Shown here: piece after piece, positions 12,056-20,183 of the stretch
How positions within the stretch are numbered: position 1 is the stretch's first letter
Layout of the letters: the number at the start of each line of letters is the position of its first letter
From: Lachnoanaerobaculum orale
GTDB taxonomy: Bacteria > Bacillota > Clostridia > Lachnospirales > Lachnospiraceae
NCBI RefSeq assembly: GCF_003862485.1
Contig: NZ_RRCM01000004.1
Location: 41,919 to 74,954, forward strand
Reading direction: 5' to 3'
Length of the DNA: 33,036 bases
Notes under the pieces: model-generated
The model's input: the letters and a program-made list of their open reading frames with translations, nothing else
The model's database searches: none
Told to the model about the DNA's origin: nothing
Translations under genes and position numbers: made by a program

Positions 12056-13098
<1,043 letters not shown>

Positions 13099-13225: not shown

Positions 13226-13228
13226 TAT

Positions 13229-13488
13229 GCACGCCTTGCTTCGAATGCCATTCACAAACGTTGCCAAAGTAGCCGGCTCCGCGGCGGCTATCTCACGGCA
13301 CATGAAAGGTCTTCCTTAGTGCTGCTACATTCCTGTCCTGACACGGTTCGAAAGTTTCCATTGCGTGGGGACCCCCACTTCAACACCACTTGCTTTAGAC
13401 TGCTAAGCAAATGTACACCCTAGGCAAGGCATCACCCCTACTAAAGCGGATTGTAGGTACAGGACACCGCTATCTCCCCGGCTGTGCG
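13229..13488 (-). ncRNA. ffs: Signal recognition particle RNA, large Gram-positive type
   Basis: About 260 nt on the minus strand. The 5' Alu-domain segment 'GGGGAGATAGCGGTG' and 'CCTGTACCTACAATCCGC', the 'AAGTGGTGTTG' block, the Ffh-binding domain 'GTGTCAGG-ACA-GGAA-TGT-AGCAGCAC' and 'CATGTGCCG' follow the order of the Bacillus subtilis scr RNA. The ends pair: GCAC-A-GCC at the 5' end with GGC-GTGC at the 3' end. The 5' end fits the start predicted from the promoter. It acts with Ffh in co-translational membrane targeting. The apical stem differs from the common TCC/GGA but pairing is kept. Confidence 0.93.
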
Positions 13489-13494
13489 TCTTTA

Positions 13495-13524
13495 AGTATA
13501 CTTGTATTTATCTATATTTGTCAA
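13495..13524 (-). promoter_or_regulatory. SRP RNA promoter
   Basis: Minus-strand TTGACA (13524-13519), 18 bp spacer, TATACT (13500-13495), start near 13488. Just upstream is the palindrome TGATTTTTAAAAATCA (13526-13541), which may serve as an A/T-rich UP element and/or end transcription of the preceding dprA-like gene. Confidence 0.75.
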
Positions 13525-13556
13525 ATGATTTTTAAAAATCAATACCACACTTGCTT

Positions 13557-14732
13557 TTAAGACGGCAGACTGTACATCTGCTTATTTCTTTTTATCTTTC
13601 CCTCGGCAACCAATCTCTTAAGCCATATATTCATTTGACCTTTTTGAATATTACACTTTTGCGCAATATCATTTGCATCCATTTCTCCAACTATGCTTTG
13701 TACAAGAGACTCTTTCACTACATCATATAAGTCAATAATATTATCTTCTTTTATATTTTCTTTAATCTCATCTTTTCCCGTTGTGAACATATCTATCTGC
13801 CTGTAAGCTTCAATATCTTTTTGAAGCGACAAATTTATGGTATCCAAAATAGTTTGTTCTGAAATGACATAAGGTATGGCTCCTTTACTTATCAGCTCTT
13901 TATTTCCTTTTTTTACACAACCGCTCCATACAAACAGATTAGTCCATGAATTATTTATATTTTCTACAGCTCCTGTCCACGTTCCGCCTTTTCCGAAGTC
14001 TGAACTTACAACAAATGCTCCATGTGCCGCCGCATAAATAAATTTATTTCTGTTCATCGCCCTTCCTACAGAAAAACCTGTGTCAGGATTTACATCTGAA
14101 AACAGTAAAATTCTTTTATTTAAAATATTTTGAATTACATCTTTGTTCCTGATTTTTTTGCTCAGTGAATCTCCTATAAATGATACAACATATCCGCCTC
14201 CATCTATTGCGGCCTTTTCTGATATACTGTCTACCCCCTTTGCACCGCCTGAATAGATAATAAGCTTTTCTTTTGTGGCTTTTTTTGCCAAATCTTTTGC
14301 AAACAGCATTCCGGCATCATCCACATCTCTTGACCCGACTATTGCAATTCCGATCTTTCCAGCCAATGTAATATCCCCCGCATAAAACAGCACCGGCGGC
14401 ATCTTTTCTCTGAGTTTTCTTTTCAGGTATTTCGGATAATCGCTGTCAAATTGTGTCACAATATATATACCCTTATTCTCAAGCTCCTGTAACTTAAGCG
14501 CTATGCTAAAACCCCTGCCTGTTAAAAGCTTTATTTGCTCTTTTTGTTTTTCCGATATAGGCAGTTTTTTGGTAAATTCACTTTTCAATAAGTCGGCAAT
14601 CTTATAGCCCATATCATTTACAGTCTTACCAAGCCCGTTCCACTCTTTTAATGTCAACGGCTTGTATTCACCCTCTATTCCTAAATTGGTACAAAGCAGT
14701 ATTGCCGCCATTGCACTGTCTGAATATATCAT
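13557..14732 (-). CDS. DprA/Smf-like SLOG protein, predicted antitoxin or partner of the RecQ-PRTase (PsyrA/RqlI-like)
   Basis: 391 aa. A helical N-terminal region (1-110), then the DprA Rossmann-type (SLOG) domain: 'IAIVGSRDVD' (129-138), 'SGGAKGVDSI' (161-170), 'VGRAMNRNK' (222-230) and 'VVSSDFGKGGTW' (241-252). A C-terminal winged-helix-like region (about 340-390, 'MDANDIAQKCNIQKGQMNIW') follows. The family binds single-stranded DNA or nucleotides. It starts 3 nt after the RecQ-PRTase gene with GAGGTGAT inside that gene's end, so the two are co-translated. Pairing with a RecQ-PRTase, and the divergent second half compared with the RNR..G.. motif of competence DprA, point to the PsyrTA/RqlHI group rather than the transformation DprA. 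Toxicity or neutralisation is inferred only. Confidence 0.85.
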   Translation of the reverse strand: MIYSDSAMAAILLCTNLGIEGEYKPLTLKEWNGLGKTVNDMGYKIADLLKSEFTKKLPISEKQKEQIKLLTGRGFSIALKLQELENKGIYIVTQFDSDYPKYLKRKLREKMPPVLFYAGDITLAGKIGIAIVGSRDVDDAGMLFAKDLAKKATKEKLIIYSGGAKGVDSISEKAAIDGGGYVVSFIGDSLSKKIRNKDVIQNILNKRILLFSDVNPDTGFSVGRAMNRNKFIYAAAHGAFVVSSDFGKGGTWTGAVENINNSWTNLFVWSGCVKKGNKELISKGAIPYVISEQTILDTINLSLQKDIEAYRQIDMFTTGKDEIKENIKEDNIIDLYDVVKESLVQSIVGEMDANDIAQKCNIQKGQMNIWLKRLVAEGKIKRNKQMYSLPS

Positions 14733-14735
14733 ATC

Positions 14736-16787
14736 TTAATTATCACCTCTTCCGGCCGTATTTGCCAACGCAAACGGGTATATATCTCCACTGCCCATTT
14801 CTCTCATCTTCATGGCACATACAGTAAAGGTCCACCTTGAATCCACCATATCATCTACAAGAAGAATATTTTCTTTCTTGACCTGAATGATTTCAAATGA
14901 ATCGTTTGCATTTTGATATTGTCCTTTACTGTTCTCAAATTTCTTTTGTTCCTCTGCATTAAACTTCTTTATTCCTTCAAAATATCCTATACCAAGTCTA
15001 TCGGCAAGCCTTTTCGCAAAATCCGGCACCAATTGTGGATGTCTTTTTGAGGTTACAGGTGTTATCCACTCTATATTATTATTTTTTATAAACTCCGACA
15101 ATATTTTTACACTTGCATCTACAAGCTCATCCGAAAAATAGCCGTCCAAATACTTTCCCTTTTGTACCGCCATGCCATATCCTGCATCGGCATAATTGCT
15201 TAGAACTATACCGCCTTTAAATTGAAATTCCGATTCAATCTTTGTTTTATCCGGAAATTGTTTTCTAGGCTCAATAACTCCAAACTTACTTTTTATAAAT
15301 TGCTGTGCCCTTTGTACCGTTTCGGCACCAACCGTTTCATCAAAAAGTAAACCTCTGCAATTAGAACATTTTCCACATACTTTTGCGTTCACATCATCTA
15401 ATTTTTCTGCAATGTACTTCATATAGCAGCCTTTTTGCTTTGTAAATTCATCCATATCCTGCATTTCTTTATGCCTTATTGCAGTTATACCTTCACTTCG
15501 CTCCAAATCAGGCTCCCACTTTTTTGCCGACTTATAATAGCCCTTTTTTCTGTTAACATATTCAGTATAAATATCATCACCGACGGTTAAATACTTTAAA
15601 GTCTTCTCTACTCTATTTGCTCTTATATTTAAAGCACCTTTGATTTCACTTATAGACTTACCCGGATTGTCTGTTATAAAATCCACAACGATATTCATAT
15701 CTTTTTCTGTAGGAAAAGCTGAATTGATAAAATATTGATTTATATGCTCATCTTCTTCTCCACACAGCAATATAGCATATGCAAGTTCTATTCCTCTGCC
15801 TGCTCTACCTATCTGCTGATAATAAGATACAATATTCGCAGGACGCTGAAAATGAATTACAAACCCGATATCAGGCTTGTCATACCCCATTCCGAAAGCT
15901 ACTGTGGCCACCAAAACCTTTATTTCATTCTTCTGAAACTTATCAAGTATAATTGCCTTATATTCCTTACTGATATCTGCATAATACTTCTCACTTTTTA
16001 TATTATTTTCATTAAGCCAATCAGTCACCAAATCACAATCCGCCTTTGTTAAGCAATATACCACTCCGCTTCCCGGCATTTTTTCAATATTTTCAGCCAA
16101 CCATGCCAATCTGTCCTCTTTTTTCTGCAATTTTATAACTTGTATAGCCAAGCTTTCCCTTATAAGCTCCCCTCTGCTTATTACCAAATTTTCTCCAAGC
16201 TGTGCGACTATATCATTGACCACTCTGTCATTTGCTGTGGCTGTAGTGGCAAGTACCGGAACATTACCAGGCAGCAATTGTAATATTTTTACAATTCTTC
16301 TGTAATCAGGTCTAAAATCGTGTCCCCAATCCGATATACAGTGAGCCTCATCTACAACAAATAAATTCACTCTGTTTTTGATTTTATCCAAACAGTCTTT
16401 AACAAAATCCGCATTTGCTAGTCTCTCCGGAGATATGATCAAAGCATCTACAGTATTATTGTCACATATATCACTTATTATATTATCCCATTCATCCTTA
16501 TTATCAGAATTAATTGTCTTGACATTGATTCCCAGTTTTTTTGCCGAATCTATCTGATTGTTCATCAAAGCTAAGAGCGGACTGATAATCAATGTAATAC
16601 CGTCTCTTTCCTTTTCCTTTAAAAGTTTTGCAGACAAAAAATATACCAAGCTTTTACCCCATCCGGTCTTTTGAACTACCAATGTCCTTTTTCCGTTGAC
16701 AACCGCCTCTATTGCCTCTTTTTGTCCCTCTCTGAACTTTGCATTTTCGCCGTAGCTTTCCCTTAAAATCTCATAAACTCTATCCAT
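14736..16787 (-). CDS. RecQ-family helicase fused to a phosphoribosyltransferase domain (PsyrT/RqlH-like)
   Basis: 683 aa. RecQ helicase core: motif I 'QKTGWGKS' (39-46), DEAH box (146-149), 'TTATA' (181-185), 'ATVAFGMGYDKPD' (294-306), motif VI 'QIGRAGR' (325-331), then the RecQ zinc site (C454, C471, C474, C477). Instead of an HRDC domain the C-terminal 180 residues form a phosphoribosyltransferase-like domain with 'ILLVDDMVDSRWT' (641-653), the place of the PRPP-binding loop. Such helicases unwind 3'-tailed DNA; the role of the PRTase part is unknown. AAGGAG lies 7 nt before the ATG. With the dprA-like gene it forms a two-gene unit matching PsyrTA/RqlHI; ShosTA is a related PRTase-DprA pair. 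Assigned by architecture, not by search. Confidence 0.88.
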   Translation of the reverse strand: MDRVYEILRESYGENAKFREGQKEAIEAVVNGKRTLVVQKTGWGKSLVYFLSAKLLKEKERDGITLIISPLLALMNNQIDSAKKLGINVKTINSDNKDEWDNIISDICDNNTVDALIISPERLANADFVKDCLDKIKNRVNLFVVDEAHCISDWGHDFRPDYRRIVKILQLLPGNVPVLATTATANDRVVNDIVAQLGENLVISRGELIRESLAIQVIKLQKKEDRLAWLAENIEKMPGSGVVYCLTKADCDLVTDWLNENNIKSEKYYADISKEYKAIILDKFQKNEIKVLVATVAFGMGYDKPDIGFVIHFQRPANIVSYYQQIGRAGRGIELAYAILLCGEEDEHINQYFINSAFPTEKDMNIVVDFITDNPGKSISEIKGALNIRANRVEKTLKYLTVGDDIYTEYVNRKKGYYKSAKKWEPDLERSEGITAIRHKEMQDMDEFTKQKGCYMKYIAEKLDDVNAKVCGKCSNCRGLLFDETVGAETVQRAQQFIKSKFGVIEPRKQFPDKTKIESEFQFKGGIVLSNYADAGYGMAVQKGKYLDGYFSDELVDASVKILSEFIKNNNIEWITPVTSKRHPQLVPDFAKRLADRLGIGYFEGIKKFNAEEQKKFENSKGQYQNANDSFEIIQVKKENILLVDDMVDSRWTFTVCAMKMREMGSGDIYPFALANTAGRGDN

Positions 16788-16804
16788 CTACAAACTCCTT
16801 AAAA

Positions 16805-16834
16805 TATAATAAACAACTACTACAGTTTATTATA
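16805..16834. other. Perfect AT-rich inverted repeat between mfd and recQ-PRTase
   Basis: 10-bp arms TATAATAAAC/GTTTATTATA with a 10-nt loop in the 57-nt gap. On the minus strand it is followed by TTTT, so it may be a weak terminator for mfd; its first arm also contains TATAAT, so it may instead carry the -10 of the recQ promoter. No good -35 is seen. Confidence 0.45.
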
Positions 16835-16844
16835 CACAATTCCC

Positions 16845-19800
16845 CTAAAACAGCTCCTTCTTCATCCTCTCAAACATCTCCACCGCAAACTCCATTCTGT
16901 CTTCCGTAGAGATTTTCTCTCTGTCCCTGTACTCCCAGTTCAGTACTTTATCGTACTTTACCGTGAGGCTTTTGCCGAAGGACTTTAGAAAATTATCCAA
17001 GTTATCCATATTCATCTGCTTATTTTCTCGCATTGTCCACTTTATCTGCAACTTGTTCACAATTACATCAGTGATAAACATAGAACTTGCAAGTGCCTTT
17101 ATCCTTGCAACATACAAAAGATTGCCTACAGGCCTTGGCATCTCACCGAATCTGTCTATCAATTCATCCTGCATATCCGAAAAATCCTCCTCGGTTTTTA
17201 CAAGAGCGATCTTTTTATATATCTCAAGCTTGGTCTCTTCATTGTCTATATAGTCACTTGGAATATAGGCGCTGTCATCAATCTCAACACTTGCCTCCAC
17301 TTCCTCTTCCACAGGCTTTCCGGTCTTTAAAGCGGTAACCGCCGTATTTAGGAGTTTTACATACAAATCATATCCGACCTCTTCCATATGCCCGTGTTGA
17401 GTCACACCAAGTACATTGCCTGCACCTCTTATCTCAAGATCTCTCATAGCAATCTTTATTCCGGAACCCAGTTCCGTAAACTCTCTGATTGCCTTAAGTC
17501 TCTTTGACGCTTCCTCCGATAAAAGCTTGTTCCTTGTATACATAAGGAAAGCATAAGCACTTCTTTTGCTCCTGCCTACTCTGCCTCGAAGCTGGTAAAG
17601 CTGTGAAAGACCGAGCCTGTCCGCATCGTGAACTATTATAGTATTGGCATTGGGCACATCAAGACCTGTCTCCACTATGGTGGTGGTGACAAGTACATCC
17701 ACATCACCGTTTATAAAGTCAACCATCTTGGCTTCAAGTTCTCTCTCATTCATCCTGCCGTGGACATACTCAACATCAATATCAGGCAATAAAGCCCTAA
17801 CATGTGCCGCCACTTCCTCTATATTGTTGACTCTGTTATAAAGATAATAAACCTGACCGCCTCTGGCCACCTCTCTTCTTATAGCCTCCTTAACAGTCTC
17901 ATCATGGTACTCCATTACATAGGTCTGTATAGGCTTTCTGTCAACAGGCGGTTCCTCAAGCACCGATAAATCCCTGATACCTGAAAGCGACATATGCAAA
18001 GTTCTCGGTATAGGTGTAGCCGTAAGTGTCAGCACATTTACATTTTCACAAAGTTGCTTAAGCTTCTCCTTATGCTTTACTCCGAATCTCTGCTCCTCAT
18101 CCACTATCACAAGTCCGAGCTTTTTAGGTACCACATCCTTTGACAAAAGTCTGTGAGTACCTATCACTATATCCACAAGCCCCTTGTTAAGATCTTCTAT
18201 AGTCTTTGTCTGTTCCTTCTTGGTATTAAACCTTGATAAGAGTGCAATCTTTACAGGGAAATCCTTCATTCTCTGCACAAAAGTATTGTAATGCTGCCTT
18301 GCCAAAATAGTGGTAGGCACAAGGTATAATACCTGATAGCCCTCCTGTATTACCTTAAAAGCTGTCCTCAGTGCAATCTCGGTCTTACCGTAGCCCACAT
18401 CACCACATACAAGTCTGTCCATTATCTTTCCGGTCTCAAGGTCTCTCTTTGCATCTTCAATAGCCTTTAACTGATCATAGGTCTCCTCATACTCAAACAT
18501 CTCTTCGAACTCTCTTTGCCAAAGTGTGTCCTCGCCGTATACCACTCCCTTGCCGTTTAATCTGCTTGCATACAAAGTCACAAGTTCCTTGGCCATTTCC
18601 TCGACTTCAGTCTTTACCTTGTTTTTGGTTTTTGACCACTCCACTCCGCCAAGCTTATTTAACTTAGGTTTTTTTATCTCGGCTCCGCCATATTTTTGGA
18701 TTCTGTTAAGCTTTGAAACCGGCACAAAGCAGTTGTCACCGCCCTGATACTCTATCTTTACATAGTCCTTTATAATGCCGTCTCTTTCTATCTTTTCTAT
18801 ACCTTTGTAGACTCCAAGTCCATGGTCCTCATGTACTACATAATCCCCTATATAAAGCTCACTTAGAGAGGTTACTCTGTCTCCCTCATACTCTTTGTTT
18901 CTTCTCTTTTTCTTCTTTTTGTCCTTAAAGATATCGCTTTCAGAAATCACCGCAAAGTTGAGTGCAGGGTACTCAAAACCTGAATGTATATTTCCGACAA
19001 ATATAGCTATCTGACCGGGAGCAATGTTCACGTCAGAATTTTCCTCAGCAAAAAAAGCATCAAGCGCATAGTCGTTTACAAAGCTGTCACAAAGTCTTTT
19101 CGCTCTGGTCTTTGATGCACAGATAAGTGCAACCTTTGTCTTGTCGGACTTGTATCTTTTAAGGTCGTCCACAAGATTTGTAAAGTCTTCATGATATACA
19201 CCGCTCATTCTTGAAAAGACGGAATAAACAGACTTCACCTCAAGTTCTTTTATTCTGTTATCAAGCCCTGTAAGCGCGATGGCGGGAGACTTATTCAAAG
19301 AGTGGAATACCTCCTTTGCGCTGAATATATCGGGGATATCCTCCTTATTATACTGACCCGATTCTATTCTGCCTGCCGCACTCTGATTGTATTCTTCCTC
19401 AGTCCTTATGGCCTTGTCCATCGTCCTTGCAGGCTCGTCAATATATATCAAAGTATTTTTATAATCAAAATATCTGAGAAAAGATTCTTCTCCTCCGATT
19501 TCTCTTTCCTTTGCCGGATAGATATTCACATACTCAAGTTCCTCTATAGACCTCTGACTTGCAGGGTCGAAGCTCTTCATGGCATCTATCTCGTCATCCC
19601 ACAACTCTATTCTTACAGGATTTTCCTCAGTCAGCGGAAAAATATCCAGTATTCCGCCTCTTATTGAAAACTGTCCCGGATTGTCGGTCTCAAAGCTTCT
19701 CTCATATCCTATATCCGTAAGCTTTTTTGACATTTCTTCCAAGTCAATTTTGTCTTCTTTTTTTATCTCAAGTGTGGCCTTACAAAACTTATTATAGTCC

Positions 19801-20183
19801 TCAAGCTTGTCCATAAGCGCATCGACGGTGGTAACCACCACACCGCTTTTATCTTCTCTAAGATGCTTCCACACCTCAACTCTTTTTGAAGTTATCTGCA
19901 AAGATCTTATATCCGCATTGAAAAAAAGCAAATCTCTGGCAGGGTAGAGATAGACCTCGCCCAAAAAGCAGCCTATATCTTCATATAGCCTGCTCGCATT
20001 GTCCTCATCATATGTTACTACCAGTTTCCAAGGCCTGTCATCCTTCATAAGCTCAGAAATCAAATGTGCCTTTCCGGGCTCGGACATATCGGTAACCTGT
20101 AAAGGAAACTTATCTTTTTTTATACTTTCTTCCAAAGACTCGAAATCCGCCAGTTTCTTTAAGGGATTTTCAAATAAACTCAT
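16845..20183 (-). CDS. mfd: Transcription-repair coupling factor Mfd
   Basis: 1112 aa ATPase that pushes RNA polymerase off DNA lesions and recruits UvrA. UvrB-like N-terminal region (1-330), linker with a Lys-rich patch (420-430), CarD-like RNA-polymerase interaction domain (440-500, 'GDYVVHEDHGLGVYKG'), RecG-like translocase with Walker A 'GDVGYGKT' (594-601), 'DEEQRFG' (695-701) and 'QLRGRVGRS', and a C-terminal TRCF domain ending about 1110. Full length for the family. It starts 8 nt after pth and is the last gene of the xpaC-telA-GH32-pth-mfd run; pth-mfd is a usual Firmicute pairing. Confidence 0.97.
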   Translation of the reverse strand: MSLFENPLKKLADFESLEESIKKDKFPLQVTDMSEPGKAHLISELMKDDRPWKLVVTYDEDNASRLYEDIGCFLGEVYLYPARDLLFFNADIRSLQITSKRVEVWKHLREDKSGVVVTTVDALMDKLEDYNKFCKATLEIKKEDKIDLEEMSKKLTDIGYERSFETDNPGQFSIRGGILDIFPLTEENPVRIELWDDEIDAMKSFDPASQRSIEELEYVNIYPAKEREIGGEESFLRYFDYKNTLIYIDEPARTMDKAIRTEEEYNQSAAGRIESGQYNKEDIPDIFSAKEVFHSLNKSPAIALTGLDNRIKELEVKSVYSVFSRMSGVYHEDFTNLVDDLKRYKSDKTKVALICASKTRAKRLCDSFVNDYALDAFFAEENSDVNIAPGQIAIFVGNIHSGFEYPALNFAVISESDIFKDKKKKKRRNKEYEGDRVTSLSELYIGDYVVHEDHGLGVYKGIEKIERDGIIKDYVKIEYQGGDNCFVPVSKLNRIQKYGGAEIKKPKLNKLGGVEWSKTKNKVKTEVEEMAKELVTLYASRLNGKGVVYGEDTLWQREFEEMFEYEETYDQLKAIEDAKRDLETGKIMDRLVCGDVGYGKTEIALRTAFKVIQEGYQVLYLVPTTILARQHYNTFVQRMKDFPVKIALLSRFNTKKEQTKTIEDLNKGLVDIVIGTHRLLSKDVVPKKLGLVIVDEEQRFGVKHKEKLKQLCENVNVLTLTATPIPRTLHMSLSGIRDLSVLEEPPVDRKPIQTYVMEYHDETVKEAIRREVARGGQVYYLYNRVNNIEEVAAHVRALLPDIDVEYVHGRMNERELEAKMVDFINGDVDVLVTTTIVETGLDVPNANTIIVHDADRLGLSQLYQLRGRVGRSKRSAYAFLMYTRNKLLSEEASKRLKAIREFTELGSGIKIAMRDLEIRGAGNVLGVTQHGHMEEVGYDLYVKLLNTAVTALKTGKPVEEEVEASVEIDDSAYIPSDYIDNEETKLEIYKKIALVKTEEDFSDMQDELIDRFGEMPRPVGNLLYVARIKALASSMFITDVIVNKLQIKWTMRENKQMNMDNLDNFLKSFGKSLTVKYDKVLNWEYRDREKISTEDRMEFAVEMFERMKKELF

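Follow-up and report, generated by a model that had tools for sequence, protein, structure and literature searches.

A 33,036-nucleotide stretch of Lachnoanaerobaculum orale DNA (contig NZ_RRCM01000004.1, positions 41,919 to 74,954; hereafter called the window) carries two adjacent minus-strand genes that almost certainly represent a member of the PsyrTA family. The upstream gene, here termed psyrT, encodes a RecQ-family helicase with a predicted C-terminal phosphoribosyltransferase (PRTase) domain, whereas the downstream gene, psyrA, encodes a DprA/SLOG protein. Comparison with related genomes indicates that the pair is a clean insertion, acquired as a unit into the interval between mfd and the gene for the large signal recognition particle (SRP) RNA. 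We consider it likely that these genes form an acquired toxin-antitoxin module of the PsyrTA/RqlHI type, in which a PRTase toxin is restrained by PsyrA and released by abnormal DNA. The pair is not a new type of system, but a fresh and intact example of one that is already known.

Identification of the gene pair as PsyrTA

Profile searches yield near end-to-end matches for both proteins, well outside what chance would produce. Specifically, the psyrT product matches the PADLOC PsyrT profile with 877.8 bits (E 1.3e-264) over profile positions 7-686 of 689, and the psyrA product matches the PsyrA profile with 343.8 bits (E 3.4e-103) over positions 1-390 of 398. The runner-up PADLOC families are DpdF for PsyrT (318.4 bits) and ShosA for PsyrA, the latter a far weaker match at 97.6 bits. 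Pfam reports DEAD and Helicase_C domains in PsyrT, and the RecQ subfamily profile TIGR00614 scores 293.5 bits against a cut-off of 219.8. The presence of these helicase domains in the toxin rules out identity with ShosTA. PsyrA carries a DprA/SLOG domain (PF02481, 116-117.8 bits), as the first-pass annotation had claimed for the product of the downstream gene. The same annotation had proposed a pair of the PsyrTA/RqlHI type, and this assignment is upheld by the profiles and conserved active-site residues, as well as by the arrangement and spacing of the genes and by trees in which they fall among paired relatives.

Neither gene is the housekeeping recQ or dprA, because both products score below the relevant equivalog cut-offs and separate loci are present elsewhere in the genome. 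PsyrT reaches 328.6 bits on TIGR01389 (cut-off 640.2) and PsyrA reaches 95.8 bits on TIGR00732 (cut-off 191.15). The second DprA locus of the window genome scores 244 bits on PF02481, versus 117.8 bits for PsyrA, and the second RecQ-family locus scores 471.4 bits on TIGR00614. A DprA protein of 374 to 396 amino acids, which scores 80.6-85.7 bits on the PsyrA profile, is encoded by all six genomes of the genus examined, and the 343-bit PsyrA is found only in the window genome.

An alignment of 17 PsyrT proteins, with E. coli RqlH as the numbered reference, locates the residues listed in Table 1. In the 698-amino-acid E. coli RqlH record, K49, D148 and D663 sit at their published numbers; they align to K45, D146 and D646 of the window protein. 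The Pfam RecQ_Zn_bind domain is matched weakly (21.7 bits, under the cut-off of 25); the four cysteines expected to bind zinc are invariant in the alignment.

The C-terminal PRTase domain is supported by profiles, clearly when the domain is aligned with its relatives and weakly when a single sequence is used. The Pfam report for the whole window protein lists no PRTase at E 0.01, and a search of this protein alone with PF00156 gives E 0.015, which is under the cut-off. A profile built from the last 190 residues of 16 relatives finds the phosphoribosyl pyrophosphate (PRPP)-binding loop of PRPP synthetase among PDB entries (E 7e-5), with purine PRTases matched more weakly. Similarly, PF00156 matches 13 of the 16 C-terminal domains, with a best E of 6.5e-11. 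The AlphaFold model computed for the domain from one sequence was of unusable quality (mean predicted local distance difference test score of 41.7). Thus, the prior description of a RecQ helicase bearing a PRTase-like C terminus stands, with the helicase recognised by Pfam and TIGR00614 and the PRTase by the aligned-domain profiles.

PsyrA extends beyond its Rossmann domain by a C-terminal segment that yields no domain match here and that is probably a winged helix, by analogy with the helix-turn-helix (HTH) of RqlI (PMC4670107). According to the alignment, this extension is missing from the shorter PsyrA proteins of four members of the same phylum (L075, L093, L097 and L125), which fits the report that the HTH of RqlI is dispensable (PMC4670107).

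Insertion between mfd and the SRP RNA gene

The pair had been described as two neighbouring genes with a 3-nt gap, lying between the SRP RNA gene and mfd. The open reading frame coordinates, the strand and the gap are all exact, and the positions of both flanking genes are confirmed. The order on the minus strand is mfd, a 57-nt leader, psyrT, the 3-nt gap, psyrA, the SRP RNA gene and pfkA (Table 1). The large SRP RNA and the gene content suggest a Gram-positive host.

Table 1. Features of the psyrTA locus and its flanks, in window coordinates
Feature	Position	Strand	Remarks
Inserted segment relative to congeners	13540..16837	.	Right end uncertain, 13534-13540; junctions defined against empty sites in G002-G005
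psyrT-like gene	14736..16787	-	683 aa; RecQ-family helicase with C-terminal PRTase domain, putative toxin
psyrA-like gene	13557..14732	-	391 aa; DprA/SLOG protein, putative antitoxin
Walker A lysine codon K45, motif TGWGKS	16653..16655	-	Equals RqlH K49; invariant in the 17-protein alignment
DEAH aspartate codon D146	16350..16352	-	Equals RqlH D148; same alignment
Zinc-binding cysteines C454, C471, C474, C477	15357..15428	-	Invariant in the same alignment
PRPP-binding loop, residues 643-653, LVDDMVDSRWT	14829..14861	-	D646 equals RqlH D663; same alignment and profile search
DprA/SLOG Rossmann domain of PsyrA, residues 84-283	13884..14483	-	PF02481; invariant SGGA, AM-RN and GGT motifs
PsyrA C-terminal extension, residues 331-391	13560..13742	-	Alignment
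Perfect 10-bp inverted repeat, 10-nt spacer, psyrT leader	16805..16834	-	TATAATAAAC-N10-GTTTATTATA; over TATAAT-like sequence
mfd	16845-20183	-	
SRP RNA promoter, TTGACA-18-TATACT	13495..13524	-	Conserved in congeners; untouched by the insertion
SRP RNA (large)	13227-13489	-	
pfkA	12056-13024	-	

The pair is not a fixed resident of this interval in all relatives, an outcome that the first-pass annotation had said would count against its proposal. When the interval was compared across the genus, the pair was found there in none of five congeners, and four of these (G002, G003, G004 and G005) have an empty interval in which mfd and pfkA lie 523-560 nt apart, compared with 3823 nt in the window and 5732 nt in the remaining congener, G001. 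The alignment with G003 ends 7 nt after the mfd stop codon (window position 16838) and restarts at the SRP RNA promoter (window positions 13533-13540). These breaks define an insert of about 3.3 kb, extending from 7 nt past the mfd stop codon to just before the promoter, and thus consisting essentially of the two genes and the leader. No direct repeat of at least 7 bases surrounds the two junctions in the stretches compared, and a target-site duplication was therefore rejected. At E 1e-60, none of the five congeners has a match to PsyrT. Among 61 genomes searched at this threshold, six matched, comprising the window genome, a full-length copy in G053 (53%) and four in which only the helicase part is matched.

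The interval in G001 (C10:64505-70236, L076) holds an ATP-binding cassette (ABC) transporter with an 11-nt direct repeat on both sides. By Pfam, this insert encodes an ABC ATPase and a permease, along with a third gene that has no Pfam match at E 1e-5. The occurrence of a transporter at the equivalent site indicates that the mfd-SRP RNA interval takes different cargo. In G005 (C10:11794-15128, L015 and its neighbour), mfd is split in two, and stop codons lie within the fragments or in the gap between them.

Base composition was considered as proof of transfer and judged weak. The third-position GC contents of the pair are 0.318 and 0.327, and those of 17 other window genes longer than 200 codons range from 0.335 to 0.447. 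The argument is weak because two shorter genes were left out of this set, one of which is equally low (0.329).

Candidate expression signals

An AAGGAG sequence precedes psyrT, and AGAGGTG within the end of psyrT precedes psyrA. The placement of these ribosome-binding-like sequences is in keeping with coupled translation. A promoter scan lists none in the 57-nt leader. The inverted repeat in the leader is of a length that arises in only 4 of 5000 leader shuffles and 7 of the 1736 57-mers of the window, and its RNA fold has a z score of -2.19. We regard it as a candidate operator or hairpin. Fifteen other psyrT genes were compared, and the 70 nt ahead of each contain no inverted repeat with arms of at least 7 nt; the proposal of a conserved operator was dropped on the grounds that the repeat is not kept at these loci.

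Distribution, pairing and descent

PsyrT is rare among relatives. With the PADLOC profile at E 1e-150, and with the window genome included in overlapping samples, carriers number 5 of 397 genomes for the family, 4 of 392 for the order, 3 of 391 for the class and 5 of 398 for the phylum. The first-pass annotation had stated that such pairs are mostly described in Proteobacteria. This is fair with regard to experiments, but surveys list PsyrTA in the Bacillus cereus group (PMC11811056), and same-phylum copies occur here at about 1%. A scan of a genome contig collection with the single protein found only one relative.

The samples supply 13 genomes besides the window genome, one of which (G091) has a contig that ends inside PsyrT. 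In the other 12, all from the same phylum, the contig continues past PsyrT, and in every one PsyrA lies directly downstream at a spacing of -4 to +3 nt. A Macrococcoides locus from another collection (L084) carries PsyrT, but a search of its 14 kb at E 1e-5 finds no PsyrA. This pairing contrasts with a 2015 survey, which reports RqlH alone in 99.6% of the Gram-positives that have it (PMC4670107); here 12 of 12 same-phylum copies whose downstream side is covered are paired, with the Macrococcoides copy unpaired. The contrast makes it testable whether an altered PRPP loop renders solo copies harmless or whether another protein restrains them, and the window contributes a compact, intact pair of the Gram-positive type with a clean empty-site comparison. 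One solo actinobacterial RqlH (L104:4914-7076) has a degenerate PRPP loop, VVDESGTGWA; this is a single case, in which the altered loop might explain why no antitoxin is needed.

Plasmid records were also searched. At E 1e-40 there are 172 matching records, 11 of which cover 80% of the PsyrT query. Among seven plasmid loci examined, PsyrA adjoins PsyrT in four (L099, L100, L101 and L103) and not in the other three (L102, L104 and L105). A phage-borne origin was rejected: a tblastn search of 50,697 phage records yields 25 with PsyrT matches, all partial (none with 80% coverage), and no full-length PsyrA in the same collection, where three records matched. Viral contigs contribute five relatives, including two with nearly whole PsyrT (L129 and L130), and a viral or proviral vehicle for the window pair is possible.

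Maximum-likelihood trees of 22 PsyrT and 18 PsyrA proteins both group the window pair with pairs from its own family (a set of seven rows with support of 96/98 for PsyrT, and a set of five rows with 100/99 for PsyrA). In both trees this group stands apart from the pairs of E. coli, Acinetobacter, Nostoc and IMG/VR. The exact sister grouping is moderately supported (93/94 for PsyrT and 84/77 for PsyrA), and the inner order differs between the trees. Broadly, PsyrT and PsyrA have moved as a unit.

Proposed function and its evidence

In the scheme that we favour, the RecQ-like helicase part of PsyrT would carry the PRTase domain to DNA, and the PRTase domain would provide the harmful activity. 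PsyrA, the DprA-like SLOG protein made by coupled translation, would bind PsyrT and restrain its PRTase. Abnormal DNA, for example single strands, DNA ends or the replication intermediates of a phage, would cause PsyrA to release PsyrT or to switch partner, and freed PsyrT would then damage or block DNA metabolism such that the infected cell stops growing. We infer the toxicity of the window copy, its trigger, the substrate of its PRTase and a role against phages. Toxin-antitoxin behaviour, argued by close homology to tested pairs, is probable, whereas defence against phages or plasmids is only narrowly favoured as the chief advantage of the pair.

Published work on the E. coli pair provides the closest support. 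The D663A mutation of RqlH is reported to abolish both its inhibition of growth and its induction of the SOS response, and the same study describes a physical interaction of RqlH with RqlI and their organisation as an operon (PMC4670107). The window pair keeps the PRPP-binding loop that RqlH toxicity requires, including the equivalent of D663. A ShosTA-like combination of DprA and PRTase proteins is described as protecting against T7 and lambda, and the same source offers, as a hypothesis for the DprA-PRTase pair, that the DprA-like partner senses phage or foreign DNA (PMC9122126). SftH was dropped as a defence-active relative, being described as a different helicase from RqlH (PMC13316683).

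The neighbours of relatives in several cases belong to restriction or other defence systems. One cassette, seen on both a plasmid and a chromosome of E. coli, has the pair between hsdS and hsdR in a type I restriction operon. In the same-phylum genome G1471 (L126), hsdR, a Fic gene, hsdM and hsdS stand immediately before the pair. On an Acinetobacter plasmid (L101:1-12079), PsyrTA is embedded in a bacteriophage exclusion (BREX) operon, with pglX on one side and, on the other, a DUF262 gene followed by pglZ. A contig from a viral collection (L129:1938-11267) encodes in a row a SMODS synthetase, a patatin, a WYL regulator, PsyrT, PsyrA and HsdM, a neighbourhood that we read as a dense defence cluster resembling the cyclic-oligonucleotide-based antiphage signalling system (CBASS). 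Other suggestive neighbours are a Schlafen AlbA_2 protein (L122), a double dynamin (L098) and a WYL regulator (L125). At another suggestive locus (L096:1990-6813), a 1607-amino-acid protein with DEAD-type and UvrD-type helicase domains is encoded directly upstream of the pair. A metagenome survey reports that PsyrTA inside defence islands co-localises with other systems (PMC10924106).

Several observations weigh against a restrained toxin that serves in defence. The E. coli study reports that the isolated PRTase domain of RqlH is not toxic and that helicase-dead RqlH is more harmful to viability and is not rescued by RqlI (PMC4670107). Thus, the division of labour between the two parts of the toxin is not simple. 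The same study detected no fitness loss in a strain lacking rqlHI (PMC4670107), and PsyrTA of E. coli NILS69 is reported to have given no detectable phage protection, with its expression slowing growth (PMC12409345). Mostly ordinary genes surround the pairs in L075, L124 and L127, and for the majority of the 12 same-phylum pairs the neighbours examined include no clear defence gene. The scan of window proteins likewise recognised no defence gene besides the pair. Moreover, the metagenome survey finds PsyrTA under-represented in defence islands (PMC10924106).

Alternative explanations

If defence is only narrowly favoured, then what else might maintain the pair? One alternative is that the module is selfish: it would persist through addiction, by killing cells that lose it after segregation, and the host would gain nothing. 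The homologues are indeed toxin-antitoxin-like, a Nostoc plasmid carries a pair beside ParA and ParB genes, and the reported absence of fitness loss on rqlHI deletion (PMC4670107) would suit such an element. However, the window pair is chromosomal with no recognised mobile gene alongside, and some relatives are nested in restriction and BREX operons, a setting that speaks for a common task in countering foreign DNA. We regard pure addiction as unlikely.

A second alternative, which we judge quite improbable, is that the pair is an accessory of DNA repair or competence that processes incoming or damaged DNA for the cell and is toxic only when unbalanced. Its domains resemble RecQ and DprA, a helicase and a PRTase also occur together in ComF proteins, and the authors of the RqlHI study favour a cooperative DNA function (PMC4670107). 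The state of the canonical recQ of the window genome (C1:2067668-2069029, L077), which lies outside the window, is also relevant. A single in-frame TAG interrupts this gene past the part encoding the helicase core, which could be real decay or a sequence error, and the stop leaves PsyrT as the sole uninterrupted recQ-family match over the cut-off in the genome. Canonical recQ has no internal stop in four of the five congeners, and G003 gives no canonical match. However, PsyrT is rare and patchy and absent from all five congeners, a full housekeeping DprA is present in all six genomes of the genus examined, and G003 has neither a canonical recQ match nor PsyrTA, such that neither replaces the other.

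It is very improbable that the pair is now inactive, carried along in a decayed or silent state: although the promoter scan is negative for the leader and G001 has unrelated cargo at the equivalent site, both reading frames are intact and full length, ribosome-binding-like sequences stand ahead of both starts, and the columns invariant among the 17 aligned PsyrT proteins are, by definition, kept in the window copy.

Within the acquired toxin-antitoxin reading, a more specific and doubtful proposal can be made. Same-phylum PsyrTA might act as a second line behind restriction-type immunity, with PsyrA reading the ends or single strands of cut or stalled foreign DNA and the PRTase, which the helicase would deliver along that DNA, chemically modifying its nucleotides or the pool that supplies them. 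The mfd-SRP RNA interval of the genus would be a small landing site with cargo that differs between species, and the pair a bare two-gene cassette without a recombinase of its own.

Comparison with known systems

The window pair can be placed relative to four described arrangements. ShosTA shares with it a DprA-like antitoxin and a PRTase toxin, and the window PsyrA also matches the ShosA profile. However, the ShosTA toxin is described without a helicase (PMC9122126), and the window PsyrA scores 343.8 bits on PsyrA versus 97.6 on ShosA. The solo RqlH of Mycobacterium smegmatis and other actinobacteria shares the helicase and PRTase architecture, but without a PsyrA partner, and the solo copies of Tsukamurella (L104) and Arthrobacter (L105) group apart in the tree.

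PsyrTA of Pseudomonas syringae resembles the window pair in its near end-to-end profile matches and toxin-first gene order, and differs in phylum and chromosomal setting. E. coli RqlHI is alike in PsyrT identity of about 45% (44-46% band), in conservation of K49, D148 and D663, and in having the toxin gene upstream. It too is a stand-alone chromosomal pair, flanked by gntU and yhgN in both E. coli genomes examined. Whereas the window genes are separated by 3 nt, rqlI overlaps rqlH in annotation, and the PsyrA proteins are only about 30% identical, with RqlHI forming a separate branch in both trees.

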